Shown here piece after piece: positions 3,748 through 60,749 of a stretch of DNA of 64,000 bases. Origin of the DNA: Lacrimispora xylanolytica (GTDB lineage: Bacteria; Bacillota; Clostridia; Lachnospirales; Lachnospiraceae). Made by a program: the position numbers and the translations under genes. The stretch's first letter is position 1. Every line of letters begins with the position of its first letter. Under the pieces are notes generated by a model. It ran no database searches. It was not told the origin of the DNA and was given only the letters and a program-made list of their open reading frames with translations. The stretch lies in the NCBI RefSeq assembly GCF_026723765.1, contig NZ_CP113524.1, forward strand, positions 2,527,001-2,591,000. Reading direction: 5' to 3'.

Positions 3748-3763
3748 TTGAGTGTGTACTCAT
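3748..3763. promoter_or_regulatory. Candidate TetR operator
   Basis: TGAGT-GTGT-ACTCA, a 5-base inverted repeat with a 4-base centre, lies 19 bases upstream of the chosen TetR start and between the divergent TetR and S8-protease genes. Its size and place fit autoregulation. Confidence 0.45.
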
Positions 3764-3916
3764 TATAATTCCAATTGATGAAAAAAGCAATCATTATTTT
3801 AAATTCCTGCACATTTTTTCGTTTCATCTCTTATAATATCAGTTTTATGCAAACCGCACAGACCGTCTGCATAGTATATACATATACTTTGCCTTGTAAG
3901 GCACAGGAGGCAATTC

Positions 3917-44876: not shown

Positions 44877-44927
44877 TACTATTTCCCCTTCCTTCTCCAT
44901 TCTTGATATGTTGTTTCCTATTTTATA

Positions 44928-44941
44928 AAATACCGGTATTT
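44928..44941. promoter_or_regulatory. Perfect 14-base palindrome, candidate LacI-family operator
   Basis: AAATACCGGTATTT, with the CG centre usual for LacI-type operators, lies in the amylase/LacI divergent region ~50 bases upstream of the amylase start. Confidence 0.55.
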
Positions 44942-45055
44942 ATAAGCAAATTATAACAATACCACTCCTAATTACAAAGTTTTTTTATACATATTGCTTG
45001 ATTTTTTTAGGTAAACGATATACTATTCTAATGGAGTTTAAGAAAGGGGTGTCCA

Positions 45056-46075
45056 ATGGCTGTAACAATAAAAGATGTTGCCAGGGAAGCCGGAGTATCC
45101 ACGGCTACGGTATCTAAAATACTGAACAACAAGCCTTATATTTCAGAGAGTACGACTCAGCGTGTCATGGAAGTAATGAAACGTCTCAATTATCATCCCA
45201 ATGCACAAGCCAGTAATTTCAAATGCAAACGTACCGGAAACATTATCTTTCTTGCTGTTACGGAAATGCATACTGCCTTTCATAACCCTCACATGTTTGA
45301 AATTCTATGCGGTGCCCAAAATGTAATCCGGGACAAAAACTATAATCTGTCTTTCTTGGGCGTATCTGACAAACAAGATGCTTTTGATTCAGCTAATAAA
45401 GTAGTGGGTTGTAACACGGCTGATGGTATTTTGGTCCATGGCTCTGCTACATCAAGGGCATTGATTGACTTTTTATCTAAAAACAACTTTCCACACATTA
45501 TTATCGGGAGACCCCCATTTGCCAGTCCCTCTTCCTGGATCGATACCAACAATCGTGTTTCTGGTCAAATGGCAATGGAATATTTGGAGAAATGCGGTTA
45601 TTCTCAAATCGCTTTTATCGGAGGACCTAAAAGCGATGAAATATCAAGGCACCGCCTGCAAGGTTTTGTATCGTATATGAATATTAATGGGCTCACCATA
45701 CAAGATGATTTTATAAAATACGGTACCTATACAAAAGAAAGCGGATTTTTAATGATGGAGGAACTCCTAAGTCAACCCACTCTCCCCGATGCCGTTATAT
45801 GTGAAAATAATCAGATTGCAATGGGGGCCGTTGGGGCAATAGAAAAACATCAATTAGCCATCCCAAAGGATATGGGTCTCATTACCTTTGACGATTATCC
45901 TCTCTCACAGCTCATTGATCCTCCTCTTACTGTGATTGATATAGATGTCCATGAAATGGGGAAACAGGCGGCTTCTATCTTATTGAGGAAGATAAAAAAT
46001 CCGGGACTTCAGGTTCAATCCTTTGTTACTCTTCCGAATCTGATTGTCCGATCATCAACCAGAAAACAAAAATAA
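45056..46075 (+). CDS. LacI/GalR family regulator, probable maltodextrin repressor
   Basis: 339 residues. HTH at 1-50 (TIKDVAREAGVSTATVSKIL) and hinge ANASNF; then a PBP-like ligand domain (HIIIGRPPFAS, FIGGPKSDEI, VIDIDVHEMGK). It lies divergently from the amylase-malEFG operon. SD AGAAAGGGG before ATG 45056. Role in starch regulation inferred from place. Confidence 0.88.
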   Translation: MAVTIKDVAREAGVSTATVSKILNNKPYISESTTQRVMEVMKRLNYHPNAQASNFKCKRTGNIIFLAVTEMHTAFHNPHMFEILCGAQNVIRDKNYNLSFLGVSDKQDAFDSANKVVGCNTADGILVHGSATSRALIDFLSKNNFPHIIIGRPPFASPSSWIDTNNRVSGQMAMEYLEKCGYSQIAFIGGPKSDEISRHRLQGFVSYMNINGLTIQDDFIKYGTYTKESGFLMMEELLSQPTLPDAVICENNQIAMGAVGAIEKHQLAIPKDMGLITFDDYPLSQLIDPPLTVIDIDVHEMGKQAASILLRKIKNPGLQVQSFVTLPNLIVRSSTRKQK

Positions 46076-46162
46076 GTGGGATGAAGCCTCATTTAAAACC
46101 AATTGACAAAGTTTGCTTATGTTGAGTTATTATTTAGAGAAATCAAGCGTCTTACGACATAA

Positions 46163-46207
46163 AAATGCATCTTGAATCAGCTTTTAAAGGCTTCTCAAGA
46201 TGCATTT
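46163..46207 (+). terminator. Terminator of the LacI gene
   Basis: AAATGCATCTTGA and TCAAGATGCATTT arms with nested AGC/GCT stem, 88 bases after the stop codon; A-rich before and TATT after. Confidence 0.65.
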
Positions 46208-46283
46208 ATTATGTGCCAGTTTGAAACTGACATATCTCTCGCTATTATTAAGACTCACTGTGGGTATGCTTTATATCCTGTTG

Positions 46284-47897
46284 TTATTCGTCACACCTTT
46301 TCTTACCGCTTGCCATTCCAACGCTAAGCAACAACCACATCATGGGAGTTACAATCACTACACTTATATTTACTACCGCTTGAGTCATATAACATATCAC
46401 AGCAAAACAACAGCCTATGATATATGGCTTTGTCTTCACATTTTTACACATACAGTAAATTGCTGAGCCAAGAAAAACAACGTAAGCAATCAAACCAGTC
46501 AGCCCAATGGTCATGAAGTACTGCAAATACTCATTATGGGCATTTTCAAAGCGTTGTGGCATTTCTTCACCGATTTTTGTTACAGTCAGTATTCCAAAGG
46601 TATCCGGTCCATGCCCAAATAATTTATGCATTGGAGTAAATTCCTTATATAACTCCATTGACTTTCTCCAAATATACCCCCGACCAGTTCCCCAGCTATC
46701 ATCAAATACGAGATAATTCCCCAAAGAGCCATACCTTGCTGCATTTCCAGCCACATTTGCATCAAAAAGCAAAAATCCAAGAACCAATACGGAAAGTATC
46801 AGCAGTCCAGCCCAGCCATACATGACCACCGGTCCAACTTCATCATTCTTATTCCGGCTTTTTTTAATCAGGATATAAACTGCAGCGTATATTGCCCACA
46901 GCCCTGCTACCACGTATAGGAAGCCATTAAACTCAGCCAATGTCTGAAACAAACTATCAAGCCCAATCACCGTATCCTTGTAGGCCTGGTTCATTTGGAT
47001 AATGCATAGCACCACGGTACCAAATGTAGCAAGCATCAGCAAATATCGCTTCATCCCGGTTTTACTTCTGAATAATAGAAAGGGCAGAAATCCAAACAAA
47101 GCGGCCAATGCCAAATATGCATTGTCGCTGCGTCCCAGGATAATTGCAAAAAAGCTAATTACCATACAGAGATAACACCAGATGACTCTTATCCTACTCT
47201 TAGCAATGGCAAACCACGCCGCTGAAGCACCTAAAATCAGTGCAACATAACCGGTGTACATATTAATATTTCCTATGGTGGAGGTAAATATATCCCATTC
47301 TTCATGAGCAATGTATTTATGAAGATTAAGGACATCCATCCTAAAATAATCTGTGATTCCAACAAAACATACAATCATACCACTGACCAGAAAAACATCC
47401 AGTACCCATTCCTTTGCCTTCCAAAACCGGCTAATCATCAGATAGGATGCAACATAGAGTGTCATTAAAAATAATCCTGAATATCGTCCTTCGTTCCCCC
47501 AGAATGACTCATAAAAATAATCGGACTGAAAAGTTGAAATAACGAGAATGATCCCAAAAATGATAGCCCAACAATCAGCTGCACGAAATGTTTTTCTCCA
47601 GTTTTTTGGGCGCAGCCTGGTAAAAAATATCTTTGTATGCTCCCCTTTATACTTCTTGTAGTCGATTACCAGCATTATTAGACAAAGAATAAGGCAAAGT
47701 GATAACATAGCCACAACGCTGCCCCAATAAAATTGATATTTGAACACCAAAATATCTATATAAGAATTATGATATATGAGAGGAAACACTAAGACTAATA
47801 AAACAATAAAAAAGCTTATTACTCCATTGATGATGGATGAACAAGCTTCTGCAAAGGTGTCCTTATGTACTTTTATATTATTACTCTTTGAGTCCAA
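46284..47897 (-). CDS. O-antigen ligase family membrane protein
   Basis: 537 residues with about 12 membrane segments. KLFGHGPDTFGILTVTK and HNEYLQYFMTIGLTGLIAY hold the conserved periplasmic loop and His-Asn of the WaaL/Wzy_C fold. In Gram-positives such proteins attach or polymerise surface polysaccharides on the outer face; exact role not known. Starts at a TTG (47897) with GGAGG 7 bases upstream. Monocistronic in this window. Confidence 0.83.
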   Translation of the reverse strand: MDSKSNNIKVHKDTFAEACSSIINGVISFFIVLLVLVFPLIYHNSYIDILVFKYQFYWGSVVAMLSLCLILCLIMLVIDYKKYKGEHTKIFFTRLRPKNWRKTFRAADCWAIIFGIILVISTFQSDYFYESFWGNEGRYSGLFLMTLYVASYLMISRFWKAKEWVLDVFLVSGMIVCFVGITDYFRMDVLNLHKYIAHEEWDIFTSTIGNINMYTGYVALILGASAAWFAIAKSRIRVIWCYLCMVISFFAIILGRSDNAYLALAALFGFLPFLLFRSKTGMKRYLLMLATFGTVVLCIIQMNQAYKDTVIGLDSLFQTLAEFNGFLYVVAGLWAIYAAVYILIKKSRNKNDEVGPVVMYGWAGLLILSVLVLGFLLFDANVAGNAARYGSLGNYLVFDDSWGTGRGYIWRKSMELYKEFTPMHKLFGHGPDTFGILTVTKIGEEMPQRFENAHNEYLQYFMTIGLTGLIAYVVFLGSAIYCMCKNVKTKPYIIGCCFAVICYMTQAVVNISVVIVTPMMWLLLSVGMASGKKRCDE

Positions 47898-48188
47898 ATC
47901 AAAGCCTCCATTCTCTTCCCTTAATATTAAATAAAGTATAACATTTAATTGACTTAACTACAATTTAAGATTTAATTAATATAAAAACTCATTTTATATA
48001 AGCTTTATTTTATATCATAGATGATAAGATTGGACTTATTATAAGCTTAATCGTACAATTTACTTGATAATTTGATTTATATAATGGTTGAATCTATAAT
48101 TGACGAAACTGTTTTTTCATTTTTTCCACTCTTTTAGTAATGAATATTTGTTTAAGTGAAGTAATCTTTTTATATGGAGGTTAGCATA

Positions 48189-48767
48189 TTGTTAAAAGAC
48201 TATAATACATTAATACGTAGATTTGCATTGGTAACAATAGGAATCATTTTAATCAGTTTTGGAATATCCTTATTTATGAAACCCGATATTTTGGAATTTA
48301 TTAATTGGGCAGATAGCAAAACTTCAGAAACGAATAAGACACAAATGGGAAAGTTTTTTCAATATGTAGTCAATAATGGGATTAAAGTCCCATTTCAAAT
48401 GCTTATTTTATCTCTTATTCCTATTCCGTTTGTCTACTACTTACCAGTTGCATTAACAGCAATTGCTACAGGGGTGGTTCTTTATCTTCCATTCACACCC
48501 CAATTACAAGATAAGATGAGTTTTTTCAAAGTGTTTTTAGGTGTTTTTCCACATGCTACCATTGAATTGTTTTCTTTTTTTATTGTATTGGCCGTGCTAT
48601 TTGAATTTAATAAAGCAATTCGAAGTCATTTGTTTAAAAAGTCCAATTCTAAATTTGGAGTTGTTTATGCTTTTAAGAAAATAGTTACTGTTTATTGTTT
48701 TGTAGCATTTCCCTTACTTGTCGTGGCAGCTTTTATAGAAGCATTTATTACACCAATGATTACTTGA
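48189..48767 (+). CDS. Stage II sporulation protein M (SpoIIM)-like membrane protein
   Basis: 192 residues from TTG 48189, with GGAGG 8 bases upstream; the in-frame ATG at 48174 overlaps that SD. Four or five membrane segments. PHATIELFSFFIVLAVLFEF resembles the conserved H-x-IE-L segment of the SpoIIM/DUF95 family. SpoIIM proper takes part in forespore engulfment with SpoIID and SpoIIP; this copy is isolated from other spo genes, so a stand-alone paralogue is likely. Confidence 0.72.
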   Translation: MLKDYNTLIRRFALVTIGIILISFGISLFMKPDILEFINWADSKTSETNKTQMGKFFQYVVNNGIKVPFQMLILSLIPIPFVYYLPVALTAIATGVVLYLPFTPQLQDKMSFFKVFLGVFPHATIELFSFFIVLAVLFEFNKAIRSHLFKKSNSKFGVVYAFKKIVTVYCFVAFPLLVVAAFIEAFITPMIT

Positions 48768-48816
48768 ATAACATCCTTCTTGATTTCAAGTAAACTCTGC
48801 ATGATACTATTATTAA

Positions 48817-48850
48817 AACAGCTCTAACCTTTTATCCAGAGTTGTTTTTT
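48817..48850 (+). terminator. Terminator of the SpoIIM-like gene
   Basis: AACAGCTCT and AGAGTTGTT arms with a 12-base loop and a T-run after. Confidence 0.8.
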
Positions 48851-48922
48851 TATAATGTGTAATGGACAGGAGCACCTTAATATAACAATATTAATCTGAA
48901 ATATATCTAATATCTTTGATTT

Positions 48923-49840
48923 TCAAAATCTCTTTTGCAACCTTTTTAATAGTAAATGAGAAAAATTGGATATCAGGAGGCCAGATATAATAATAAGCCC
49001 TCCGCCCCATTGTAATGCTGTCAGTTTCTCCTTCAATACGATCTGTGCTGTAATAAGACCCGCTACCGGAACCAAGAGCGATAAAGGAGCCACTTCTCCT
49101 GCGGAGTATTTTGCCAGTAATGTGCTCCATATACCATACCCAATCAGAGTTGCGCACAATGCCAGATATACGATAGAAAAGATGGCTGTTCCATTGATAT
49201 CGGTCAGCTGATTCCATACCTGTAAAGGCTTATTGATGATGATTGCAGCTGTCATCATAGGGATTGGTGGAATCAGACTTGACCATACAACCATGCTAAA
49301 CATATTTAATTTCTTTCCATGTGCCTCTGCTTCTTTTGACGCATATCTAACTACAAGATTGGAAATTCCCCAAAAAAGAGCGGCTAATATCGTTAGAAAG
49401 AATGCCGCTCCCGGTATAGCCGTTCCGCCATTGCCTCCAATGCTGCCGCTTATAAAATAAAGTCCGATTCCAGCAATGATAAGTCCCACCATTTGGCCTT
49501 TTCTGATTTTTTCTTTAAACAAAATGCCAGCAAATAGAATCGTAAAAAATGCCTGTGACTGCAAGACCACTGATGCAACACCAGCGGGCATCCCTATATT
49601 TGCTGCATAAAAAAGGCATGAAAACTGTCCTACACCAACGGTCATTCCATATATGACGATATATTTCCAACTGGTATCTGGCCGCTTTACAAATAGTATT
49701 GCAGGCAGAGCAGCAACCGTATATCTTAATGCCACCAATAAAAATGGCGACATTTCATTGACTCCTAATTTAATTACTGTAAAGTTAATCCCCCATAATA
49801 GCACAACAAATATGGCAAGTAATTTATCCCATGTTTTCAT
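48923..49840 (-). CDS. EamA/DMT family transporter
   Basis: 305 residues with ten membrane segments as two EamA repeats (WGINFTVIKLGVNEMSPFLL for the first, FWGISNLVVRYASKEAE for the second). Homologues export amino acids or metabolites; E. coli YdcZ/RhaT-like members vary. Substrate not determinable. Start 49840 has AGGGATAAGG upstream. Confidence 0.85.
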   Translation of the reverse strand: MKTWDKLLAIFVVLLWGINFTVIKLGVNEMSPFLLVALRYTVAALPAILFVKRPDTSWKYIVIYGMTVGVGQFSCLFYAANIGMPAGVASVVLQSQAFFTILFAGILFKEKIRKGQMVGLIIAGIGLYFISGSIGGNGGTAIPGAAFFLTILAALFWGISNLVVRYASKEAEAHGKKLNMFSMVVWSSLIPPIPMMTAAIIINKPLQVWNQLTDINGTAIFSIVYLALCATLIGYGIWSTLLAKYSAGEVAPLSLLVPVAGLITAQIVLKEKLTALQWGGGLIIISGLLISNFSHLLLKRLQKRF

Positions 49841-50308
49841 AAATTATATCCTTATCCCTCCTAAAAAAATGTTTCATCTGGTAAAAGACGATTTTAGCCT
49901 CCTTATTATACTGACTTCCAATCCCTACAATTATTATAGGCACGAAGCTTCTTTACTTAAGATACTAAAAAACTTATTATTAACTGTTATCTTTTTAAGT
50001 CGCTAATGAATTTGATTATATCTTATCATGGAAATAAAAGAAAGATATAATAAAGATCTATACTGGTTATCTACTGCCCTTCCTTCATACACTCCCTGGT
50101 GTATTTATAAAAAATATTCTGATTGGAGATGAGTATGTACAGGTTGTTCATGATTTCGAGAGTACAGAACATATACAAGCATACTTAACAATTACGATAC
50201 CAACGTAACGATTTGCGGCGTAACATAAGTAACATTAAAGATCCCCATGCAACTAATTATCTGCACGGGGAACATGATTAGAGTAATATCTTTTCCATGA
50301 GTAATCTT
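49841..50308. other. Intergenic region before the peptide island
   Basis: About 470 AT-rich bases. It contains the LytTR gene terminator (50243-50270). A plus-strand frame from ~50085 to 50208 reads like a coding remnant (GDEYVQVVHDFESTEHIQAY), but has no start and stops soon after. It could be a small decayed gene or chance. Confidence 0.4.
50243..50270 (-). terminator. Terminator of the LytTR/MFS transcript
   Basis: Minus-strand CCCCGTGCA and TGCATGGGG arms, 10-base loop, one G-U pair. Confidence 0.65.
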
Positions 50309-51025
50309 TTACTCTTCTTGTTTTTGCTCAATCAGCCAATTTCCAACAACTTTTCTGTTATGCTGGCTTATAGGTAATATTCTTTTATTAACCATTTCTA
50401 TGTAATTATATTGATAAGAGACTATATACGAATAATTTACAATGTAAGATTTATGGATTTGGAGAAAATTTTCACCCGGAAGCTGCTGCATTGCTTCTTC
50501 AAGCTTTCCATAAAATTCATATTCTCCATCCTTTTCTACTATTTTAACTTTTTTTCGATTACTCTCCAAATAAATAATGTCCTTAAAAGGTATTCTTTTA
50601 TGAGTTCGGTTTATTTTAAACTCAAAATATTGATTTTCATGATCAATCAACATAATGGCTGTTTTTAAAACCTTCTTTATTTTCTCTTTTTTTAAAGGCT
50701 TTACTAGAAAGTTCAATGGACGAATATCAAATAATTTGATAGCATAACTTTCTTTTACCGAGACATATACAATTTGTGTTATATTATCATTTCTTTCTTC
50801 TCTTATCTTACGTCCAATTTCTATGCCATTAATAGTCTCGAATTCAATTCCAAGAAATATCAGATGATAAAAATTTTCTTTTATAATATACTTATATAAT
50901 TCTTCACCTGAATAAAAAACATCCACCTCAAATTCTCTTCTCATACTATTTTGAAATACTATTATGACTTCTTCCAGTTGAGTACAAGTTACAGGATCAT
51001 CATCACATATTGCAATATGTAGCAA
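50309..51025 (-). CDS. LytTR-type response regulator lacking the phospho-acceptor Asp
   Basis: 238 residues from TTG 51025, preceded by GGGGGGA (spacing 7); the ATG at 51040 overlaps that SD. REC domain at 1-125 keeps the acidic pocket (AICDDDP) and the Lys in NFLVKPLKKEK, but the acceptor position in the conserved LIFLDIE motif reads LIFLGIE, with Gly59. LytTR DNA-binding domain ~140-238 (IPFKDIIYLESNRKKVKIVE, HKSYIVNYSYI). No sensor kinase adjoins, which agrees with phosphorylation-independent action. It is the last gene of the DUF2087-MFS-LytTR unit. Confidence 0.87.
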   Translation of the reverse strand: MLHIAICDDDPVTCTQLEEVIIVFQNSMRREFEVDVFYSGEELYKYIIKENFYHLIFLGIEFETINGIEIGRKIREERNDNITQIVYVSVKESYAIKLFDIRPLNFLVKPLKKEKIKKVLKTAIMLIDHENQYFEFKINRTHKRIPFKDIIYLESNRKKVKIVEKDGEYEFYGKLEEAMQQLPGENFLQIHKSYIVNYSYIVSYQYNYIEMVNKRILPISQHNRKVVGNWLIEQKQEE

Positions 51026-51084
51026 GTCAATTCCCCCCATGCTTCATAAGTTTATTTCTTAATTAAATAAGGTTATTTGTATAA

Positions 51085-52323
51085 TTAATTAAAAGTATTA
51101 TCTATGAGCCTACTTTTACCTCTTTTCAATATGATTATAATAATAAGTACAATAAACATATTATTCACGATATAAGTGACATCCGGTCCTATTATACTGG
51201 AAATAAAACCGGAATAAAGAATTCCTAACGGAACAAACAGGCTAGAGCTAAATGTTAATAAAGCAAAAAACCGGCCTTGAAACTGCAGTGGAGTATGAAT
51301 TTGAAAATAAGAATTTAATGGCACATTTACACATGTAGTAAAGAAGCCAATTAATAACTGTATTATTAGAAATAGAAAAAAATATAAAGTTTTTAAAGGA
51401 TACAATATGATAGATAATCCACCAGTAATAATCATCAATCCACTATTAATCAAAATAAAATGATACATATAGTTTTGTAATTTAATTTTACGGTTTTTAA
51501 AGATGATGAACCCCGCAATTATCGTTCCTAAAATTGCTGTTGTAGACGTAAATCCAAATAATACATCAGATATTTTATATTTTTGAATTAAAATTCCTGG
51601 ATTCATTATTTCTTCACTACCACCAACAAAAAAATTCAAAGACATAACTAAAATAAACAGATATAAAATATCCTTATGATCCCGAACAAATTGAATTCCT
51701 TCTGTGAGCTCTTTAATCCAATTGGATTTTACAGAAACATCAGATTTACACGACGTGTATTGTATAAAATATTCTAATATGGCAGACGTAACATATAAAA
51801 TCACCATAATTAATAAAATTATTTTAAATCCCCATAACCCAAAAGTAAGTGTTCCTAATACAGGAGCAATAAGTGATGCAGCATTATCACCAAAACTTTT
51901 TATACCATTATATCTTTCTATGGTTTCCAAAGAAACAATTTCTGAAAAAAATACTTTAGATGCTATCTCAAAAATATTAGAGACAATGTTTATTATTATA
52001 GTAACGGTTAATAAAACCCCCAAATAATCATTAAAATTGTAGGTGACAAATAATACAAAATATAAGAATCCTGTAAACAGATCACACAAAATAATAATAT
52101 TTTTCCTATTAAACCTATCCACGAATAATCCTAATAATGGTGTCACAATTATTGCCGGTACTGTAGACAATGTAAAAAAAACACCTGACCAAGCTAAACT
52201 TCCCGAGCTTTTTAAAATAAATAATGGTAAAACGATAAGGTAAAAAGCCACTCCGAACTTAGAAGTCACTCTTCCCATAATTAACAAAATAATATTCTTT
52301 TTATAGTTCCTATCTCCCCCCAT
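51085..52323 (-). CDS. MFS efflux transporter (MFS_3/EntS-like)
   Basis: 412 residues with 12 membrane segments. GLFVDRFNRKNIII is the TM2-TM3 loop motif; FTSTTAILGTIIAGFIIFKNRK is typical of macrolide/siderophore-type exporters. ATG 52323 has AAGGAG 7 bases upstream, overlapping the DUF2087 stop region, so the two are translationally coupled. Its place beside a radical SAM maturase and peptide suggests peptide export or self-protection, by inference only. Confidence 0.85.
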   Translation of the reverse strand: MGGDRNYKKNIILLIMGRVTSKFGVAFYLIVLPLFILKSSGSLAWSGVFFTLSTVPAIIVTPLLGLFVDRFNRKNIIILCDLFTGFLYFVLFVTYNFNDYLGVLLTVTIIINIVSNIFEIASKVFFSEIVSLETIERYNGIKSFGDNAASLIAPVLGTLTFGLWGFKIILLIMVILYVTSAILEYFIQYTSCKSDVSVKSNWIKELTEGIQFVRDHKDILYLFILVMSLNFFVGGSEEIMNPGILIQKYKISDVLFGFTSTTAILGTIIAGFIIFKNRKIKLQNYMYHFILINSGLMIITGGLSIILYPLKTLYFFLFLIIQLLIGFFTTCVNVPLNSYFQIHTPLQFQGRFFALLTFSSSLFVPLGILYSGFISSIIGPDVTYIVNNMFIVLIIIIILKRGKSRLIDNTFN

Positions 52324-52327
52324 ACGC

Positions 52328-53101
52328 TTACTCCTTGATCCAATATTCAGAGCAAGAATCCGTTCTTTCTAAAAAACCATATTCAATTAATAACCGCCGA
52401 ATATATGGAAAATCGCTGTAAATCTTTTTTAACACATTATTTACTTCAATTTCACTATAATGGATACCTGGTGAAAAGTTACTTGCAATTTCCCTTAGTA
52501 TTACGATTTTTCCCTTTTCTTTAGCAGGAAACTGTTTGATGCAGCCATTTTGATCTATATATCTTGCGATCATTTTTTTCTTTTCCTCAACAGTGACATT
52601 GTAACGATCATCAATCATTGTAGCGGTTTTATGGGCATCATAAAATTGAGATGATGGTTCTTCCGATTTCATAAAGTCCTCCTTTTTTTTGAATAGATCC
52701 ATAGCAGCCAAAAATAATTTAGCTTGTTTCTCATACTCATGTAGCTTATACCGGTGATTTCTCACAGTAGAGCAGGAAATACCCTTTACTTCGCTAATTT
52801 CTTTATCAGATTTCCCCTCTGCCATTAATTTTAGTATAGATTGCTGTGTAGATGAAATCCCTAAAAAATTCGGATTCATATTCAGTAAATAATCTAACAT
52901 GGAGCCATGCTTTTCCTCATTATGAATTTTCATCATTTTATACGCATCATAGAAATGATTATTATGCTGAAATATCTCTCCTTTCGTAAAGGTTTCATTG
53001 CATATCAGACAATATACAAAATTATCATTTTCGTAAAAGCCGTTTGTTAACTCATCTTGTGTCACTTGCCATAACGACTTTCTTTCATCGTGGTCTCTCA
53101 T
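52328..53101 (-). CDS. Transcriptional regulator with zinc finger, LuxR-like HTH and DUF2087 domain
   Basis: 257 residues from ATG 53101 (MRDHDERKSLWQVTQ), with AGGGG and AGGAT SD-like runs upstream; the longer ATG at 53218 would cross a promoter. Order: a C2H2-like finger (YCLICNETF, then HFYDAYKMMKIHNEEKHG, C-x2-C...H-x4-H), a LuxR-type HTH (STQQSILKLMAEGKSDKEIS), and C-terminal DUF2087 (KQFPAKEKGKIVILREIAS, FPYIRRLLIEYGFLERTD). DUF2087 is found in Gram-positive regulators. It heads the MFS-LytTR unit and is a likely controller of the peptide island. Confidence 0.8.
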   Translation of the reverse strand: MRDHDERKSLWQVTQDELTNGFYENDNFVYCLICNETFTKGEIFQHNNHFYDAYKMMKIHNEEKHGSMLDYLLNMNPNFLGISSTQQSILKLMAEGKSDKEISEVKGISCSTVRNHRYKLHEYEKQAKLFLAAMDLFKKKEDFMKSEEPSSQFYDAHKTATMIDDRYNVTVEEKKKMIARYIDQNGCIKQFPAKEKGKIVILREIASNFSPGIHYSEIEVNNVLKKIYSDFPYIRRLLIEYGFLERTDSCSEYWIKE

Positions 53102-53198
53102 CTTATCCTGGCCCCTTTTTAGCAATTTTTCATTTCTACTTTTTTCTGCACTTATAAATACTACTATACTACCTATTACATTTATGAACTCATATGTG

Positions 53199-53227
53199 AT
53201 TATATACCTTTTATCCATTTATGTCTA
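53199..53227 (-). promoter_or_regulatory. Promoter of the DUF2087-MFS-LytTR unit
   Basis: Minus strand TAGACA (53227-53222), 17-base spacer, TATAAT (53204-53199). A large palindrome abuts its upstream side. Confidence 0.7.
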
Positions 53228-53230
53228 TAT

Positions 53231-53263
53231 ATATGCAAACAAATATATCATTTGTTTGCATAT
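53231..53263. promoter_or_regulatory. 33-base perfect-armed palindrome, candidate activator site
   Basis: ATATGCAAACAAAT (53231-53244) and ATTTGTTTGCATAT (53250-53263) with a 5-base centre. It sits just upstream of the -35 of the regulator promoter, a usual activator position. No T-run, so not a terminator. Confidence 0.7.
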
Positions 53264-53330
53264 TATAAACTCAAAACTACATTTAGTAATAAAGCATAAG
53301 CTGTAATTCGTATTTTATTGTGTCTATATA

Positions 53331-53387
53331 AAAAGGAGTTGTTGCTAACGTAGATGATTGATCCACTTTTGCAACAACTCTTTTTTA
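53331..53387 (-). terminator. Terminator of the radical SAM-peptide unit
   Basis: GAGTTGTTGC (53336-53345) pairs with GCAACAACTC (53371-53380), with A/T runs outside both arms. Confidence 0.85.
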
Positions 53388-53433
53388 AAAACCATTGTTA
53401 AAATTTTTGTACCTTAAAGAAATGCTCAAAACA

Positions 53434-53535
53434 TCAAGTTGCATACTTCATTACATAATCCTGATTTTCTAAACTCTCGGCAATTATTTCTTTTTCTTCA
53501 AGCTCTTTTAGTTTTTCAAGTAACTGCTTGTCCAT
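53434..53535 (-). CDS. 33-residue putative RiPP precursor or signal peptide
   Basis: ATG 53535 is preceded by GGAGGTGA (spacing 6-8), the strongest SD in the island. The peptide starts MDKQLLEKLKELEEKE and ends ENQDYVMKYAT, an acidic-basic amphipathic N-terminal stretch followed by a short less charged tail. That is the usual leader/core layout of a modified peptide. It lies 23 bases after the B12-radical SAM gene, on the same strand and before one terminator. It has no recognised family. An unmodified regulatory peptide is an alternative. Confidence 0.72.
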   Translation of the reverse strand: MDKQLLEKLKELEEKEIIAESLENQDYVMKYAT

Positions 53536-53558
53536 AAATTCACCTCCACTCTCTTAAT

Positions 53559-55895
53559 TTATTCTAAAGGTATTAAGATCTTTGAATCAAGCATGATTGA
53601 AAATAGATTTCTCAGATCTTTGCCTTTAAAACCAAAATCATTTTTCTTTAACTCTGCCTTTAAGCATTCCAGCGAATGTCTCTTCTTGAAATAATCCAAT
53701 AATAAAAAGGAGAGTTTGTTGATTTTACACATATCGTATGTAATTAGATTTAATAGATAAATGCCACCAGCGTCATTAGCTTCTTTAACAACAAATTGAT
53801 CATTTAATATACAATCAGTACTTTCATAATCTATCAAGTACTGATCTTTATGACTCTTATTGCTGATATTAAGGAAATTGAAATATATCATTTTATTAAT
53901 TTCATCCAACAGTTCCCCCTGTGAACCAGTTAATAGCTCCTGTACGGATATTCCCTCACTCAATTGTTCTAGTATAGTTTGATATTTATCATCCAGATAA
54001 AAAATTTGGTGATTCATACTATTGTATAACACAAACCTCTTGTCTAACGCCAAATCATAATGATTGGCTTCTTGAAAACTAACATGCTCATCTAAATTAA
54101 TATACAAATCTTTACTTTCATTACGTATATCATACATTAATTTCGTCTTTACACTATGATATTCGGTCTTGTTTACAGAATCCAGTATCCATTTTACTTC
54201 TGATACATGCAATCTTTCAGGTAAAAGCATATACTGGGTAAATAATTTATCAGATTGATGCTCGAATTGATGTTTGCTTACTAATTTTATGCTCTCTTCT
54301 GTTGATAGACCTTCCATAATATCAAAGGAAACATTGGTAGATAAATCCCCCCGGCCATCACGGTATATTTTATTAATGCTATATTTTTCAGGATAATACC
54401 ATACATCAGAGCCTATATCTAAACCAAACTCTTGAAAGCCCCTTGATGAATAGGGAACTTTATACTTATTTTTTGATTCATTCAAAATCATAGTAGTATA
54501 GTTGATTGAATTCAAAGCTTCCGCTTCTGTTTCCGTAGGAAAGCCAACCATAAAGAATAGATGTACCGGTATACCGCTCTTTAAACAATTACGTATATTC
54601 ATATCAATCCATTGGATTTTTACATTCTTCTTCATCTTATCGAGCACGCGTTGATTGTATGATTCCAGTCCAAATTGAATTTGTCTACAACCGCTTTTAT
54701 ATATCGCATTACAATTTTCTTCTGTCAATGTTGGACTAAATCGTGTCTCACCATGCCAATAGAAATCCAACTGCTCTTCATTTATCATTTCTGCCAGTTC
54801 AACCATTCTACTTGCTTCAAACGTTTCATCGACAAAAGAAAAAATACGTGAATGATATTTGGAATTAAGCTCTTTCATATTTTGTAGGACCTTCACCACT
54901 GGTATGGTACGATATCTCCCACTGGTTGCACTTGGAATTGTACAAAAAGCACATTTGTTAAAACATTGTCTGCTAGTATATATTGGCAGCACTAATTCCG
55001 GCATTAAATATTTATCCAATTGAAACCCGTCAAAATCAGGCACTGTATCATTGACAATAGACGTTGCCACTATATTATTCTTACAGATTTCATTTTTCTC
55101 ACGGATATAATATAAATTATTGATACCCTCTAAGGTATCACCGTTCTCAACCGCATTTATTAATTGTGGAAGAACTGCCTCTCCATCGTATAGCATAATA
55201 GAATCAAAATATTTATAAAATGGATGACGATTCGTAAAATTATGTATTGCCAACCTGGTTATGTAATTACCTCCAAGTGATATATGCTTGACGCTATTAC
55301 AGCTTTTTTTAATCAGCAAACATAACGTTAACGCCGAAATGAGTTGATACGACCCACTAATTGAAATTCCTATGAATTCAATTTTTTCTTTGTTAATTCT
55401 CTCAATGATCCCTTTTTTATAAAACTCAATAAAAGGATTGATATCACTGTTATCAATTACTTGCATAATATCATTGGTTTGCTTATAACCATACTTCAAA
55501 TCTATTTTATTTAAGTCAATGGTACAGCCGTCTATGGACTTGCTAATTAAAAACAAGCTGTTTTTTATTATATTTTCAGCATAATCCCGCTTTTGCAAAT
55601 CATAATATTCTTTTCCTCTGATAATTGATTTTGCAAGCTCAATTTTTAGTGCGGACTCCTTAACTAAATCAAAGGTTAATTGATCTCTGCCTTTTAATGA
55701 CTTTTCACGTGTGATTATATCCAATGATTTATTTACTCGTTCTGCAGATAACATTTCATCATAAAATTCAATATTTAAATCGACAATGCTTACATCTATA
55801 TCTTCTCGCTCTTTTAGGTATGATTTTAAGATAGGTAATGCTAAGTAAGGCCCTACAGGCGTCCAGCCAGGAGGAAAAATAAGCAGTTTTTTCAT
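53559..55895 (-). CDS. Cobalamin-binding radical SAM protein, candidate peptide maturase
   Basis: 778 residues. Residues ~1-250: B12-binding Rossmann region (LLIFPPGWTPVGPYLALPIL, EFIGISISGSYQLISALTL, SLGGNYITR). Radical SAM core ~305-540: iron-sulfur Cys311, Cys315 and Cys318 in SRQCFNKCAFCTIPSAT, with QFGLESYNQRVLDKMKKN and FFMVGFPTETEAEA following. The C-terminal ~150 residues contain two PqqD/RRE-like stretches (FVLYNSMNHQIFYLDDKYQT and GIYLLNLITYDMCKINKLS), known as peptide-binding domains. Related enzymes do C-methylation or other radical chemistry on RiPP peptides. No SD of its own: the ATG lies 1 base after an 11-codon ORF. Confidence 0.88.
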   Translation of the reverse strand: MKKLLIFPPGWTPVGPYLALPILKSYLKEREDIDVSIVDLNIEFYDEMLSAERVNKSLDIITREKSLKGRDQLTFDLVKESALKIELAKSIIRGKEYYDLQKRDYAENIIKNSLFLISKSIDGCTIDLNKIDLKYGYKQTNDIMQVIDNSDINPFIEFYKKGIIERINKEKIEFIGISISGSYQLISALTLCLLIKKSCNSVKHISLGGNYITRLAIHNFTNRHPFYKYFDSIMLYDGEAVLPQLINAVENGDTLEGINNLYYIREKNEICKNNIVATSIVNDTVPDFDGFQLDKYLMPELVLPIYTSRQCFNKCAFCTIPSATSGRYRTIPVVKVLQNMKELNSKYHSRIFSFVDETFEASRMVELAEMINEEQLDFYWHGETRFSPTLTEENCNAIYKSGCRQIQFGLESYNQRVLDKMKKNVKIQWIDMNIRNCLKSGIPVHLFFMVGFPTETEAEALNSINYTTMILNESKNKYKVPYSSRGFQEFGLDIGSDVWYYPEKYSINKIYRDGRGDLSTNVSFDIMEGLSTEESIKLVSKHQFEHQSDKLFTQYMLLPERLHVSEVKWILDSVNKTEYHSVKTKLMYDIRNESKDLYINLDEHVSFQEANHYDLALDKRFVLYNSMNHQIFYLDDKYQTILEQLSEGISVQELLTGSQGELLDEINKMIYFNFLNISNKSHKDQYLIDYESTDCILNDQFVVKEANDAGGIYLLNLITYDMCKINKLSFLLLDYFKKRHSLECLKAELKKNDFGFKGKDLRNLFSIMLDSKILIPLE

Positions 55896-55896
55896 T

Positions 55897-55932
55897 TTAA
55901 CTTTGTATGATTGTATTTAAAATGGTAATCAT
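55897..55932 (-). CDS. 11-codon leader ORF before the radical SAM gene
   Basis: ATG 55932 with AAAGGAGAG directly upstream encodes MITILNTIIQS and stops 1 base before the maturase ATG. The maturase lacks its own SD, so translation re-initiation from this leader is likely. It could alternatively be a tiny secreted signal peptide. Confidence 0.6.
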   Translation of the reverse strand: MITILNTIIQS

Positions 55933-55950
55933 ACTCTCCTTTCCCTTATT

Positions 55951-55980
55951 AATATAGAAATCAAAGAATAAGTATGTAAA
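55951..55980 (-). promoter_or_regulatory. Weak candidate promoter of the radical SAM gene
   Basis: Minus strand TTTACA (55980-55975), 18-base spacer, TATATT (55956-55951). The leader to the 11-codon ORF would be short. Confidence 0.35.
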
Positions 55981-56103
55981 AGTACATGAAGTGAAGTTTT
56001 CTGAAATTATGGACAGCATTATCAGCTACATTGATATAATTCTATTTATTATTTATACAGATATTTTCATAAGATTTTATCAGAAAAATGAACCTTTTTT
56101 TAT

Positions 56104-56136
56104 TTATGGAAAAAATGATATATACATTTGCCATAA
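56104..56136. promoter_or_regulatory. Imperfect palindrome upstream of the radical SAM gene
   Basis: Minus strand TATGGCAAATG then TATATATCATTTTTTCCATA. Arms pair with a few mismatches. It resembles the 53231-53263 palindrome in length (31 bases) and in the TATATCATTT centre; both lie ~130-175 bases upstream of a start. Confidence 0.45.
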
Positions 56137-56164
56137 TTTAAATTCTTGGGCATTGGGGTAATAA

Positions 56165-56203
56165 AACAGACGCAATTGTCTCTAGCGGACTTTCGCGTCT
56201 GTT
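56165..56203 (-). terminator. Terminator of the GPH/GH78/HPr-like unit
   Basis: AACAGACGC and GCGTCTGTT arms with a 21-base loop, then TTTTATTA on the minus strand. Confidence 0.75.
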
Positions 56204-56228
56204 CATATTGGTCACTGCTGTTGAGTTC

Positions 56229-56459
56229 TCAATCTATTATATATTTGGAGAATTTCTCATCCACTAACTCTTCATCCTCCGTATTGGCGACTAATACAAG
56301 TGTTTCTTCCAAATTCAGGCTGAATATTCCCATGATAGACTTTGCATCAACAGTATATTTTCCTTGTGATAAATCCATATCACAATTAAAGTGGCTGCAA
56401 ATGCGGTTAAATTCCTGAACTGCACTAATACTCGGTATCTTTACTACTCTTTTTATCAA
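56229..56459 (-). CDS. HPr-like protein without the phospho-His
   Basis: 76 residues from TTG 56459 with GGAGAGAG upstream. The KSIMGIFSLNL segment matches the Ser46 region of HPr; the active-site His15 is missing (NRICSHFNCDM near that place, no GLHARP motif). Such HPr-like proteins of clostridia act, if at all, in catabolite control rather than in PTS phosphotransfer. It directly follows a decayed ROK gene, whose stop it overlaps. Confidence 0.8.
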   Translation of the reverse strand: MIKRVVKIPSISAVQEFNRICSHFNCDMDLSQGKYTVDAKSIMGIFSLNLEETLVLVANTEDEELVDEKFSKYIID

Positions 56460-56562
56460 TTTTCTCTCTCCATTTCATTACCTTTTTCAAGAATATCCGC
56501 ATCTTCATTCATTATCGCATATTTAATAAAGGTTCCCCCGAATCAATTACAAGATATTCCAT
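56456..56562 (-). pseudogene. ROK-family sugar kinase remnant, frameshifted and truncated
   Basis: ATG 56562 opens MEYLVIDSG, and one base out of frame continues GTFIKYAIMNEDADILEKG, together the N-terminal ATP-binding sequence of ROK kinases (DxGGT). A run of five G where six would keep frame marks a 1-base deletion. The continuation stops after EMEREN, ~270 residues short of a full kinase. It lies 5 bases after the GH78 gene, where a kinase would be expected. Confidence 0.75.
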
Positions 56563-56567
56563 GTATC

Positions 56568-58130
56568 TCACACCTCATCTGATAATTTTCGAAGCAGATA
56601 AGCGGGGGTACAACTCCATGCATGGCAGTAGCTGTTTACTGCCGAAGAGCCATAGGGAGATTCTTGAGGGTTATCCGGATTATACAATTCCCAGAAAGTA
56701 TCCGCTCCCTGAAAAAGCATACCTCCCCAATAATATTTCATATAGTCTATAGCTTTTTCCTTTTCTCCGCAGAGAATTAATGCTTCTACAAAATGATGAT
56801 TCATATATGGAGTCACCATCCCCATCTCTGGTTTCAGTTCCACAATACGATCCATCAGCATTCTGGCTTCCTCTCCTGCTTTTACACCAGCCAAGACCAT
56901 CCATACCTGGCTTACATAAGAAATCTGACGTTTCTCTCCGCTGATAAATACCCCTTGTTTGTCATCCCAAAAATAATTAAGGGCTGCGCTCACAAACCGT
57001 TTTCTTTCTTCCTTTAATTCATCTGCAAGTTGAACCTTGTCTAAAGCCTCAGCCAGAACAATACCGTCATTCAACGCATATATGTAGATTGCCTGCGCAC
57101 TGGCCTGCTTATTCAGCCCCTCTTTCCAGTCAACAAAACACCAGTTACTATCACCCTCCTGAACCACGTTTCTTTCATTGAAACACATTCTGGACAATTC
57201 AATCTGACGATATGCTGACGGCCAAAGCTCTTCTACAGTCTTTATATCATATGTAGCTTCATAATAGTCTTTTAAAGTAGAAATGAAAAACAGCGAGTAA
57301 TCAAACATAAACGTATCATCCACCAGATACTCTGGTTCTGTAAAAAGACAAGCTCCTATGGCTCCGTCGTCTCTGATAAGTCCGGCAAATAAATACATGC
57401 ACCGCTTTACCAATTCATAATCTTTAAACGTTGCATAATTTGCCAAAGCCTGAAGCCTTAAATCCCCCAGCCAAAGTCTACGGTCACGCTTCGGTCCATC
57501 TTCAAACACTGATTGCATACAATTTAGAAGGGTCCTTAGACTGACTTTGTCCATACGTTGCAGAACTGGATCAGAAGCAGAAATCGGCTCTACCTCTTCC
57601 ATATCTACAGCCGAAACTGCTCTGCAAACCACTTCTTCCACTACAACCTGAAATTTTAAAGAAGTATCAACCGCATAAATTTCCAAAAACCGGAATGCAT
57701 ATCGCCTTGGCAAATGCAGCCAGGTTGGCAGCACATCCAAATGAATGTATTCTTCTTGAATCCAACTACGGCTGATCCACCCATTATATTCCTCTGAATT
57801 TTCCGTTATTTCTTTTGGAACCTCACCAAATTTCAGCCTTAAATAAGCCGGCGCATCCTGAGGACTCCCTATGGATTTCAATTTTAAGCTGACATAGCCT
57901 ACTTGATGGTCACCAAAATCCAGAACAATGGATTCCCCTTTCTTTAAAGTAAAAAGCTCTAATTCACCAATTTCTGCTCTTGGCTCCACTTTCCCAGATT
58001 TATTGATGGACACAATATTTATTGGTTTCACTTGTTTCTCTATCAGCTTTGGTTCCAGCTTTATTGCCTTTTCCACAAATACATCATTCGTAATTCTCTT
58101 CATATTTAAATCAACACTAACTGCTGCCAC
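56568..58130 (-). CDS. GH78-like family protein (six-hairpin alpha-L-rhamnosidase fold)
   Basis: 520 residues from a GTG (58130), AGAGGG upstream. FEDGPKRDRRLWLGDLRLQA carries the GH78 catalytic-region motif (DGPKRxRxxWxGD-type). N-terminal ~190 residues are beta-rich, C-terminal ~330 form the (alpha/alpha)6 barrel. Shorter than typical GH78 (~900 residues), lacking accessory domains. No signal peptide, so it acts in the cytosol on an imported oligosaccharide. 15 bases after the GPH symporter gene. Rhamnose specificity is inferred from the family only. Confidence 0.8.
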   Translation of the reverse strand: MAAVSVDLNMKRITNDVFVEKAIKLEPKLIEKQVKPINIVSINKSGKVEPRAEIGELELFTLKKGESIVLDFGDHQVGYVSLKLKSIGSPQDAPAYLRLKFGEVPKEITENSEEYNGWISRSWIQEEYIHLDVLPTWLHLPRRYAFRFLEIYAVDTSLKFQVVVEEVVCRAVSAVDMEEVEPISASDPVLQRMDKVSLRTLLNCMQSVFEDGPKRDRRLWLGDLRLQALANYATFKDYELVKRCMYLFAGLIRDDGAIGACLFTEPEYLVDDTFMFDYSLFFISTLKDYYEATYDIKTVEELWPSAYRQIELSRMCFNERNVVQEGDSNWCFVDWKEGLNKQASAQAIYIYALNDGIVLAEALDKVQLADELKEERKRFVSAALNYFWDDKQGVFISGEKRQISYVSQVWMVLAGVKAGEEARMLMDRIVELKPEMGMVTPYMNHHFVEALILCGEKEKAIDYMKYYWGGMLFQGADTFWELYNPDNPQESPYGSSAVNSYCHAWSCTPAYLLRKLSDEV

Positions 58131-58145
58131 AATATCCCTCTCTTC

Positions 58146-59501
58146 CTAATTTTCTTTTCTTCTTGCTTCCAGCTCTCTGTTAATATCTGGCAGCTTCTTA
58201 TCTAAGTCATAGAATAAAAATGTTACAATTGTTAATACATTTGCTGCAATTGGAATCCAGATATACATTGCACTGATTGCATTTAACGCAGAAGCAGACT
58301 GTACCGGGGCGTTGGCAACATAGCCACTTGCAGCCAGCATTGCGGCTGCAACGGAGCTTGCAACTGCCATTCCTACCTTACCGATAAAGCCGTTCACCGC
58401 AGATAATGTTCCTGAGATATTAATCCCGGATTTCCATTCCCCATAGTCGACAGGATCTGGCTGAATTGCAAAATGCATACTTCCTTTTAGACCATAGCCA
58501 AGAGCTGCAACCACCACTCCCAAAAGCACGACCGGAATGAAACTGCCTCCAATAAAAACCACCACCAATCCAGCACCATGTAATACAGATCCTACGATCA
58601 TTAAATTTCTTTTTGTAGTCAAACGGGATAAAAATGGAACACAAAGATTTGTCACCACTGGTATCAGGGTTGTAATGGTAGCAGCAACACTGGAAAGCTC
58701 TTTATTATCCAGATTATAGGTAAAGTAGAATATGATTGCTCCCGCCTGAATCACAAATCCGCCAAAAAACCAGATAATGTTTGCTGCAAAGAGCAGCCAC
58801 GGTTTATTATGTATCAAACAGCTTAAGATTGCTTTTATACTTACTTTCTCCTCACTGATCCGTATTCTTTCTTTTGTATTAAAAAAGCAGAAAAAGAATA
58901 CCAGACAGCCTACGACACCGAATATCAGCATTACAATCCGAAAACCCACGGCTTCATTTCCCCCTCCCAATCGATCCACCAATTTAAGGGTAAATGCGGA
59001 CACCACAGTTGAGCCTATACAGGAAAAAAAGATACGGCTGGTTGCCAGGTTAGTTCTTTCTCTGGGATCTGCTGTTAATGCCGGTAAGATAGATGCCATG
59101 GGGATATTTACCATTGTGTACGCCACAGACAACAAAATAAAGGTTACATAAGCATAAATCAGCATTCCTTTCTGAGATATATCCGGTACGCTGAATGCCA
59201 GAACTGCTGTAACTGCAAAAGGAATGGCACCTGCGAAGATCCAAGGCCTTGATTTCCCCCACTTCGTGTTTGTCCTGTCAATCATGAAACCCACAGCCAA
59301 ATCAATAAAACCATCAAAAACTTTCGTTACCAAAAACATCACGCTTACCGCTGCGGCTTTGAGATGCATGACATCGGTGTAAAAATACAACAGGTATAAG
59401 GAAATAACCTGCCAAATCAAATTGCATGCAAAGTCGGAAGAACCATATCCGATTCGCTGGCGCCATAGACTTTTTTTCATATCTTTTTCTATCGTATTCA
59501 T
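58146..59501 (-). CDS. GPH-family sugar:cation symporter (MelB/XynP-like)
   Basis: About 451 residues, 12 membrane segments. RIGYGSSDFACNLIWQVISL, MIDRTNTKWGKSRPWI and QPDPVDYGEWKSGINISGT are GPH signatures. ATG 59501 (MNTIEKDMKK) is chosen, with GGGAGGG upstream; ATG 59537 is also possible. Imports an oligosaccharide with Na+ or H+ for the GH78-like enzyme that follows. It is the first gene of that unit and divergent from an AraC gene. Confidence 0.86.
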   Translation of the reverse strand: MNTIEKDMKKSLWRQRIGYGSSDFACNLIWQVISLYLLYFYTDVMHLKAAAVSVMFLVTKVFDGFIDLAVGFMIDRTNTKWGKSRPWIFAGAIPFAVTAVLAFSVPDISQKGMLIYAYVTFILLSVAYTMVNIPMASILPALTADPRERTNLATSRIFFSCIGSTVVSAFTLKLVDRLGGGNEAVGFRIVMLIFGVVGCLVFFFCFFNTKERIRISEEKVSIKAILSCLIHNKPWLLFAANIIWFFGGFVIQAGAIIFYFTYNLDNKELSSVAATITTLIPVVTNLCVPFLSRLTTKRNLMIVGSVLHGAGLVVVFIGGSFIPVVLLGVVVAALGYGLKGSMHFAIQPDPVDYGEWKSGINISGTLSAVNGFIGKVGMAVASSVAAAMLAASGYVANAPVQSASALNAISAMYIWIPIAANVLTIVTFLFYDLDKKLPDINRELEARRKEN

Positions 59502-59644
59502 CTCATCAAAACCCTCCCCTTTATTTGGTATGGCCATGATATCATTACGCAGTTATTTTTTCTATTGAATATTTTATGATATTGACTTGATATTTTTTAA
59601 GATGTTATACTTAAGATAATTGATAAGAATAGAGAGGTGTTTCT

Positions 59645-60694
59645 ATGAAAATAATCAAAGACAAATTTAAAAATTTCATGCTTTCTTATACACAGGATGA
59701 ACTTTTTTATCGCCGCCTTTACGAAGAAGAACACTTACATCCGGAAACATTCTCTCAATATGTTGATTCCTTGGATCGGAATTTTATTGAACAGCATCAA
59801 CTCTATGTCCCCTGCCTTCACGAAACATGGTTTCCTTATATATCCGAAAATGAATTCTTTAAAACTCAATTTCAAAACATTTACATTGCAAAGCACAATC
59901 GTTATTCACCAGAATATCTTCACCAACATGAGTTCTATGAATTTTTTTATGTCTATACTGGCTCTTGTATCAATACAATTCAGGGTAAAGAGCAAATCTG
60001 CCAGACCGGAGATTTGTGTATTATTCCCCCTAATACGAGACATAGCATTGCCGTATTTGATGACAGTGTCATAATCAATGTCATGATTAAGTCCAGTACC
60101 TTCCATGCGACTTTTTTTGAATTGTTTACGAATAATAACGTTTTATCTAATTTTTTCTCCCATACTTTATATGAAAAAACGGAAAACAATTATCTACTGT
60201 TCCACACCCAGTCAGATATTGTTATCCGTTCTCTTATTGAAGATATTTATATCGAATATTACGGTCATAAAAAATATTCGAATTCTCTGCTTGACAGTTA
60301 CCTCTTAACCTTTTGGGTATTACTTCTGCGGCATCATGAAAACCACCTGGAAAGTTTACTTAACACAACTCACCAAAATCTGGCACTACTTGATATCTTA
60401 AATTACTTCCAGGCGAACTTTATGGATATCACCCTTACCTCTGCTGCTGCGCATTTTGGATTTTCTGTTCCTCATTTCAGCAAACTCGTCAAAGATAATA
60501 CAGGTAAGACCTTTATACAGCTTATCCGGAATATACGGTTGGAAAAAGCATGCCGTGCCCTTAAAACAACGAATTTAAGTATTTCTTCTATTTGTGAAAT
60601 TATCGGTTATTTAAATCCCGAGCATTTTAATCGTATTTTCAAAGAAACTTATCATATGACTCCGAGTGAATATCGTAGGAACCATACAAATTAG
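59645..60694 (+). CDS. AraC family transcriptional regulator with N-terminal cupin
   Basis: 349 residues. Residues ~80-170 form a cupin (HQHEFYEFFYVYTGSCINTI, GDLCIIPPNTRHSIAVFDD). C-terminal HTH pair (LTSAAAHFGFSVPHFSKLVK, ICEIIGYLNPEHFNRIFKET). It lies divergently from the GPH-GH78 unit and probably activates it in response to the imported sugar. SD AGAGAGGTG before ATG 59645. Confidence 0.87.
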   Translation: MKIIKDKFKNFMLSYTQDELFYRRLYEEEHLHPETFSQYVDSLDRNFIEQHQLYVPCLHETWFPYISENEFFKTQFQNIYIAKHNRYSPEYLHQHEFYEFFYVYTGSCINTIQGKEQICQTGDLCIIPPNTRHSIAVFDDSVIINVMIKSSTFHATFFELFTNNNVLSNFFSHTLYEKTENNYLLFHTQSDIVIRSLIEDIYIEYYGHKKYSNSLLDSYLLTFWVLLLRHHENHLESLLNTTHQNLALLDILNYFQANFMDITLTSAAAHFGFSVPHFSKLVKDNTGKTFIQLIRNIRLEKACRALKTTNLSISSICEIIGYLNPEHFNRIFKETYHMTPSEYRRNHTN

Positions 60695-60749
60695 TGCAAG
60701 GTGGTTTTGTTTATGGTAATTAAGGAGTTTCCTTAGTCTCACATCATTT

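Follow-up and report, generated by a model that had tools for sequence, protein, structure and literature searches.

Background

A gene for a radical SAM protein of 778 residues in Lacrimispora xylanolytica is followed by a 33-codon ORF and by genes for a DUF2087 regulator, an MFS protein and a LytTR regulator, an arrangement that raises the question whether the locus makes, exports and controls a RiPP of its own, as proposed in a first reading of the DNA (the original prediction, below). We addressed this question in a window of 64,000 nucleotides, the whole stretch of DNA that was analysed, which is part of a 4.5-Mb single-contig genome labelled G000, and in the related loci of other genomes. 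The locus is real, conserved and rare. With a probability that we put at roughly 0.7, it represents a new RiPP family, the precursors of which end near (K/Q)-Y-(A/V).

Layout of the locus

All ORFs of the cluster lie on the - strand (Table 1), in the order 11-codon leader ORF, radical SAM gene, 33-codon ORF, hairpin with T-run, DUF2087, MFS and LytTR genes and, last, another terminator-like hairpin. Most of what the original prediction had read here was recovered: the radical SAM ORF, the 33-residue ORF 23 bp downstream of it with a strong SD, the MFS gene, and a terminator-like hairpin with T-run that stands 3' of the peptide ORF and is probably common to the enzyme and peptide genes. The stretch is also AT-rich, as described, the block of the five genes having a G+C content of 30.2% versus 39.2% for the window. 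The DUF2087 gene is present, but its ORF (52328-53218) had been over-called; in two relatives (G397 and G398) the open frame extends no further upstream than about residues 26-40, which makes M40, at 53101, the probable start. A gene for an HPr-like small protein (PTS-HPr, 2.1e-06) is found on the same strand at 56229-56459 of the window, upstream of the leader ORF. An Rfam search of positions 44000-62000 found nothing.

Table 1. Features of the cluster, in order along the - strand (window coordinates)
Feature	Position	Strand	Evidence or remarks
Inverted repeat, 8 bp, GTATGATT/AATCATAC, flanking the start of the leader ORF	55905..55934	-	Small hairpin
Leader ORF, 11 codons, MITILNTIIQS	55897..55932	-	SD GGAGAG; stop adjoins enzyme ATG
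Radical SAM maturase (predicted), 778 aa	53559..55895	-	B12-rSAM-type N-terminal domain (family resemblance); core 306-465; C-terminal region of ~220 aa
Candidate precursor peptide, 33 aa, MDKQLLEKLKELEEKEIIAESLENQDYVMKYAT	53434..53535	-	SD GGAGGTG, ATG start
Terminator-like stem 3' of peptide gene	53336..53380	-	10-bp arms, T-run
Palindrome (arms of 14 bp) adjoining the DUF2087 promoter-like site on its upstream side; candidate operator	53231..53263	-	Sequence
Promoter-like site TAGACA-17-TATAAT	53199..53227	-	11/12 consensus matches
LuxR-type HTH + DUF2087 regulator, 257 aa from likely start	52328..53101	-	DUF2087 1.2e-23, GerE 6.1e-07 (Pfam)
MFS exporter (predicted)	51085..52323	-	MFS_1 9.6e-24 (Pfam); TIGR00900 5.2e-51, under the TIGR00900 cut-off
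LytTR regulator, receiver domain with Gly for the phospho-acceptor Asp	50309..51040	-	Pfam and alignment of relatives
Terminator-like hairpin 3' of LytTR gene	50242..50271	-	Terminator scan; 2 such sites in region, 2.2 expected from shuffles

The cluster probably comprises two transcription units, the enzyme and peptide genes forming the first and the remaining genes the second, because the hairpin with T-run that follows the peptide gene is in turn followed by a promoter-like site. The terminator-like region folds at -24.2 kcal/mol, and its stem is retained in G398 with paired changes; the terminator scan does not list it, because the loop exceeds the length that the scan allows. Promoter-like sites number 44 in the region versus 41.6 in shuffles, a count not above that of shuffles and hence no proof. 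No palindrome like that upstream of the DUF2087 gene is listed for the G398 interval. The 11-codon ORF probably serves as a translational-coupling leader of the enzyme gene; at its place in G398 there is a 13-codon ORF of other sequence, the stop of which overlaps the enzyme ATG. The inverted repeat at the leader ORF is kept in G398 with one change that gives a G-U pair, and its fold is unexceptional, with a z-score of -0.36.

Distribution and conservation of the gene set

Orthologues of the enzyme are rare and patchily spread among draws of genomes that sample their groups, overlap one another and, where large, were scored at two candidates per genome. Of 25 genomes from the genus, six give a match at 1e-10 and four carry an orthologue: the window genome, Clostridium sp. 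12(A) (G321; L003, L005), G397 (L004, L034, L072), whose enzyme is 97% identical to that of the window, and G398, where the two parts seen are 73-75% identical. The G398 gene is split over two contig ends, with residues 81-516 unseen, and its pieces are treated as one gene; G321 and G397 are counted once each. The other two genus matches have an identity of 34% or less. A draw of 397 genomes from the family returned the orthologue in G000 and G321 only, 29 other matching genomes standing at 32% identity or below, and 391 genomes from the class gave no new orthologue. Two draws of 398 genomes each from the phylum added the same two genomes both times, G950 with a full-length enzyme (43% identity over residues 1-774) and G908 with a broken one (44% over residues 2-254). 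Among relatives of G950 (45 and 82 genomes) the only matches are G950 itself and a fragment in G1203, and among three genomes searched around G908 only G908 carries a match; a scan of genome contigs gave two loci, those of G321 and G397 again.

Radical SAM relatives at 25-34% identity (G412, G302, G054, G809, G966, G661, Rhizobium and Aureibacter) are distant and were not counted as orthologues. One of them, G302 (L070), has an ORF at 529-1080 (+) with several tandem copies of approximately TMCEQSISIMKKNDDGIKQIGIESP, beside an MFS gene (1148-2389) and a B12-rSAM-like gene (2386-4335); this ORF, which does not resemble the 33-residue peptide, may encode a RiPP precursor whose cores are repeated.

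A viral or plasmid origin of the cluster was set aside, as no relative was confirmed in pattern-based scans of viral contigs, phages searched with the G950 enzyme at E 1e-10 gave none, and the plasmid matches (17 and 8) were partial, none covering 80%. A tRNA-like end had been read beside the G398 cluster, but a tRNA-linked insertion there was rejected, ARAGORN finding no tRNA in L062, L063, L087 or L088. A serine recombinase gene is located upstream of the cluster in G398 (L063 5056-6678) and a tyrosine recombinase gene downstream of it in G950 (L087 13967-14848). Given these recombinase genes, the cluster might have been spread by mobile elements.

Six loci of three lineages, four of them from Lacrimispora, include the 3' end of the enzyme gene; the G1203 fragment falls outside this set, since only residues 1-121 of its enzyme match and the 3' end of the gene is absent. 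A 33-codon peptide gene is found at all six, with an ATA start in one, and so is an MFS gene, as a shortened ORF in G908; DUF2087 is encoded at five and LytTR at four. Enzyme homologues regularly lacking the small ORF, exporter or regulator, named in the original prediction as evidence against the idea, were not encountered among these six orthologous loci. All five genes stand together in G398 at 72-85% identity. The order in G950 is enzyme, 153 bases, an SD with a TTG-started 33-codon ORF (MSKEILKQLQEEALTKEVTAEVFDTCSNSTQYV), a long hairpin, DUF2087 (3.1e-22, here with an ArsR-type HTH) and MFS, beyond which a spermidine-synthase-like protein and the tyrosine recombinase are encoded. The enzyme gene of G908 (L088 5195-9567) lacks the radical SAM core with its CxxxCxxC and is broken by an insertion with a transposase that may be IS66-like; an open 33-codon ORF (MSLEEIKAYVEEHDNTIEFEDLRDAKASHTKYA) overlaps the end of the broken gene, and the shortened MFS ORF is found upstream, in the same orientation. 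The 16 kb examined around this locus contain no DUF2087 gene, and no strong hairpin follows the peptide ORF.

Regulators and exporter

Relatives of the DUF2087 protein occur in 19 of the 25 genus genomes, only 4 of which have the enzyme orthologue, and the protein was accordingly rejected as a marker of the cluster. No other protein of the window cluster is encoded near six genus DUF2087 loci without the enzyme; as read by eye, four of these DUF2087 genes come after TetR, MFS-like, permease-like and ABC genes, whereas the remaining two have different neighbours. The LytTR regulator bears out the description of a receiver lacking its phospho-Asp: a glycine (FLGIE) occupies what we take to be the position of the phospho-acceptor Asp, and it is retained in G321, G397 and G398. 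Only the Lacrimispora loci have this gene, which is absent from those of G950 and G908. The MFS proteins of the window and G950 align over just 123 residues, at 31% identity. A Pfam scan of nine proteins in and around the cluster gave no peptidase.

A different reading is that two independent modules lie side by side, one made up of the enzyme and its peptide, the other a separately controlled unit for efflux or stress that comprises DUF2087, MFS and LytTR. The hairpin and promoter-like site fall between these two parts, 15 genus genomes have DUF2087 but no enzyme orthologue, LytTR is missing from two of the loci and DUF2087 from that of G908, and the MFS proteins have little in common between the window and G950. 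We nevertheless regard this arrangement as unlikely, since the five genes have been kept together in G398, the enzyme, peptide, DUF2087 and MFS genes appear in the same order in G950, and a site-specific recombinase gene is found near the cluster in both genomes.

The peptide gene

The 33-codon ORF is a real gene under purifying selection. Over the 32 codons after the start, the window and G398 differ by 8 synonymous and 4 nonsynonymous changes, for a dN/dS of 0.07 (P = 2e-4, binomial on sites), and the nonsynonymous divergence of the peptide, 0.050, is below the 0.117-0.144 of the C-terminal part of the enzyme and the DUF2087, MFS and LytTR proteins. The comparison with G397 involves 1.5 and 1.5 changes (dN/dS 0.20), too few to say, and the G321 peptide provides little independent evidence because it is identical to that of the window. 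When the 25 genus genomes were searched with the peptide, matches at E < 1e-11 appeared in exactly the four that have the enzyme orthologue, and three further matches lay near E = 1. The peptide has no match in Pfam, NCBIfam or plasmids and no PHROG under E 0.15.

Chance occurrence of such an ORF was gauged in the window, G950 and G398 regions by asking for an ORF of 28-45 aa that has an SD and begins no more than 230 nt downstream. The window and G950 regions pass, compared with 8/1000 and 22/1000 of their shuffled versions; G398, for which 10/1000 shuffled regions pass, fails because the homologous start is ATA and not ATG. From a usual start, an ATG 18 bases upstream, the G398 peptide ORF has 39 codons.

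Read by eye, the peptides of the three lineages have in common a length of 33 and a C-terminal (K/Q)-Y-(A/V). In comparisons with 5000 shuffles, the window and G950 peptides are more similar than expected (0.006 in global mode, 0.010 in local mode), and those of G950 and G908 likewise in global mode (0.002), yet not in local mode (0.12), so that the local comparison fails; the similarity of the window and G908 peptides does not exceed that of shuffles (0.41 global, 0.67 local). The best local match between the window and G950 covers residues 1-20, the N-terminal part being more alike than the C-terminal one.

This last pattern is what a leader and a core predict, and it bears on a different reading of the gene, in which the 33-residue product is a conserved small partner, be it an activator, a chaperone or a regulator, that remains unmodified, the substrate of the enzyme being something else. 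A hypervariable core is indeed missing within the genus: the window and G398 differ at scattered sites, and hardly at all in the last ten residues. The peptide also appears charged and helix-like by eye, and the G908 ORF is open though the enzyme is broken. We consider a partner role quite improbable in view of the distribution of similarity between the window and G950, and also because a short gene beside a radical SAM enzyme is the usual layout of RiPP loci.

The radical SAM enzyme

The enzyme matches PF04055 at 75 bits (cut-off 29.5) and has a CxxxCxxC motif at C311, C315 and C318, retained in G950, which places it in the radical SAM superfamily. Its top NCBIfam match is TIGR04479 (PhpK), at 124.6 bits (E 3.6e-36) for the window and 123.4 bits for G950, against a cut-off of 600. 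TIGR03975 (rSAM_ocin_1, RiPP C-methyltransferase) matches residues 139-459 of the window enzyme at 99.9 bits (E 1.3e-28) and the G950 enzyme at 108.9 (cut-off 281.85), and NF050148 (ApyD) gives 57.8 and 63.9 bits, respectively (cut-off 750). Membership in any of the three families was ruled out by scores so far under the curated cut-offs. ApyD is presumably related to PbsB, an enzyme considered further below. That the enzyme is a small-molecule methylase akin to the P-methyltransferase PhpK, with the small ORF unrelated to it, is highly improbable despite TIGR04479 being the top match of both proteins, since both scores are far too low, only residues 157-466 of the window enzyme are matched, no phosphinate pathway gene is recognisable among the nine proteins scanned, and the peptide gene, itself conserved, goes with that of the enzyme.

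Two of the labels attached to the protein in the original prediction are to be read as predictions. The best NCBIfam relatives include several whose names mark them as B12-binding radical SAM families, all of them far under cut-off, but the Pfam scan of the window enzyme gave no B12-binding match; from this family resemblance we infer that the enzyme is probably cobalamin-dependent. The PqqD-like character of the C-terminus is suggestive only. Past residue ~560 there is no significant Pfam match in two fragments of the window enzyme and one of the G950 enzyme, and the G908 piece has one weak match to Pfam PqqD (E 0.088). By HHalign, the C-terminal halves score above all 30 column shuffles each when compared with two solved PqqD sequences, at probabilities < 1%. 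AlphaFold models reach a pLDDT of only 43 and 31; one low-confidence model places two strands followed by three helices in the first C-terminal segment and one strand with three helices in the second. Together with the hydrophobic pattern, this order of elements suggests that the C-terminus may be read as two PqqD-like segments. A duplication is not supported, because the two halves, compared directly, are alike over 16 columns only. A PDB profile search with the C-terminus gave no match, and one with the whole enzyme gave a single match, over the core, to apramycin oxidoreductase 4 (2.9e-07). The enzyme of strain 12(A) (L003 7001-9154) is 60 residues shorter, in frame, lacking roughly residues 45-104 in its N-terminal part, and is 99% identical over the rest.

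Proposed pathway

The reading of the locus as a new RiPP family stands on a peptide gene that is under purifying selection and on 33 homologous or equally placed codons beside the enzyme at every one of the six loci. With these, the RiPP part of the original prediction is well supported; the notion that the peptide comes with its own export and control fares less well in so far as DUF2087 is not specific to the cluster.

Under the RiPP reading, the enzyme and peptide would be produced from the first transcription unit and the other proteins from the second. The first ~24 residues of the peptide would act as a leader, held by the C-terminal, possibly PqqD-like region of the enzyme, which would modify the C-terminal ~9 residues around (K/Q)-Y-(A/V). 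The modification would most likely be a C-methylation and less likely a cross-link. A housekeeping peptidase could then free a small product for export by the MFS protein, and DUF2087 might tune the expression of the peptide gene, a role that we propose because BtmL of bottromycin is the nearest documented analogue.

More tentatively, and with distinctly less confidence than the family itself, one may envisage a new RiPP class in which a single B12-dependent radical SAM enzyme, its leader-binding region doubled, would act at the C-terminal (K/Q)-Y-(A/V) of precursors that are exactly 33 residues long. The result would be a very small exported molecule, an antibiotic or a signal, under the control of DUF2087; in Lacrimispora a LytTR regulator working independently of phosphorylation would share in this control and might itself detect the product directly.

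If the RiPP reading is true, it adds a family that lies outside the curated enzyme models and has a one-enzyme pathway simple to rebuild in E. coli, and it extends the DUF2087 type of regulator in a RiPP context to Clostridia and a distant Bacillota lineage.

Comparison with known systems

PqqD-like leader-binding domains (RRE) are frequent, although not universal, in RiPP loci. The enzyme may resemble radical SAM RiPP enzymes with a fused RRE of this kind in the order of elements in its first C-terminal segment, as seen in a low-confidence model, and would differ from them in possibly having two tandem copies. A locus of the PhpK type differs from that of the window, which has a peptide gene and an enzyme with a long extra C-terminus. 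In biphenomycin-like clusters, PbsB is a B12-rSAM enzyme that introduces cross-links and acts on aromatic residues of the precursor, and the pbs cluster has an MFS gene (PMC12257519). The window locus is similar in its MFS gene and in the match of its enzyme to the ApyD profile; it differs in that the score is far below the ApyD cut-off, in that its peptide has no FHAFRF-like motif and in that no MNIO gene of the biphenomycin type is present among the nine proteins scanned.

Among the matches listed in the open-licence literature there is no description of the cluster, which is weak evidence with subscription papers outside the scope, and bottromycin is the one RiPP in connection with which DUF2087 comes up. 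In that pathway, the DUF2087 protein BtmL acts specifically to increase precursor gene expression, export is the task of the MFS protein BtmA/BotT, and the class B (cobalamin-dependent) radical SAM methyltransferases are the products of several genes; an ArsR-type HTH fold is predicted for BtmL, in which no canonical wHTH was detected from sequence (PMC7113386). The window locus has one radical SAM enzyme, a precursor of another kind, a regulator with a LuxR-type HTH and an extra LytTR regulator, and a Pfam scan of the nine proteins in and around it found no YcaO of the bottromycin type. On the side of likeness are the candidate precursor peptide, the radical SAM enzyme, probably of class B, the DUF2087 regulator and the predicted MFS exporter, compared as kinds of genes and not as sequences, to which the G950 DUF2087 protein adds the ArsR-type HTH that is the fold predicted for BtmL. 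We read the resemblance to bottromycin as one of gene kinds and not of membership.
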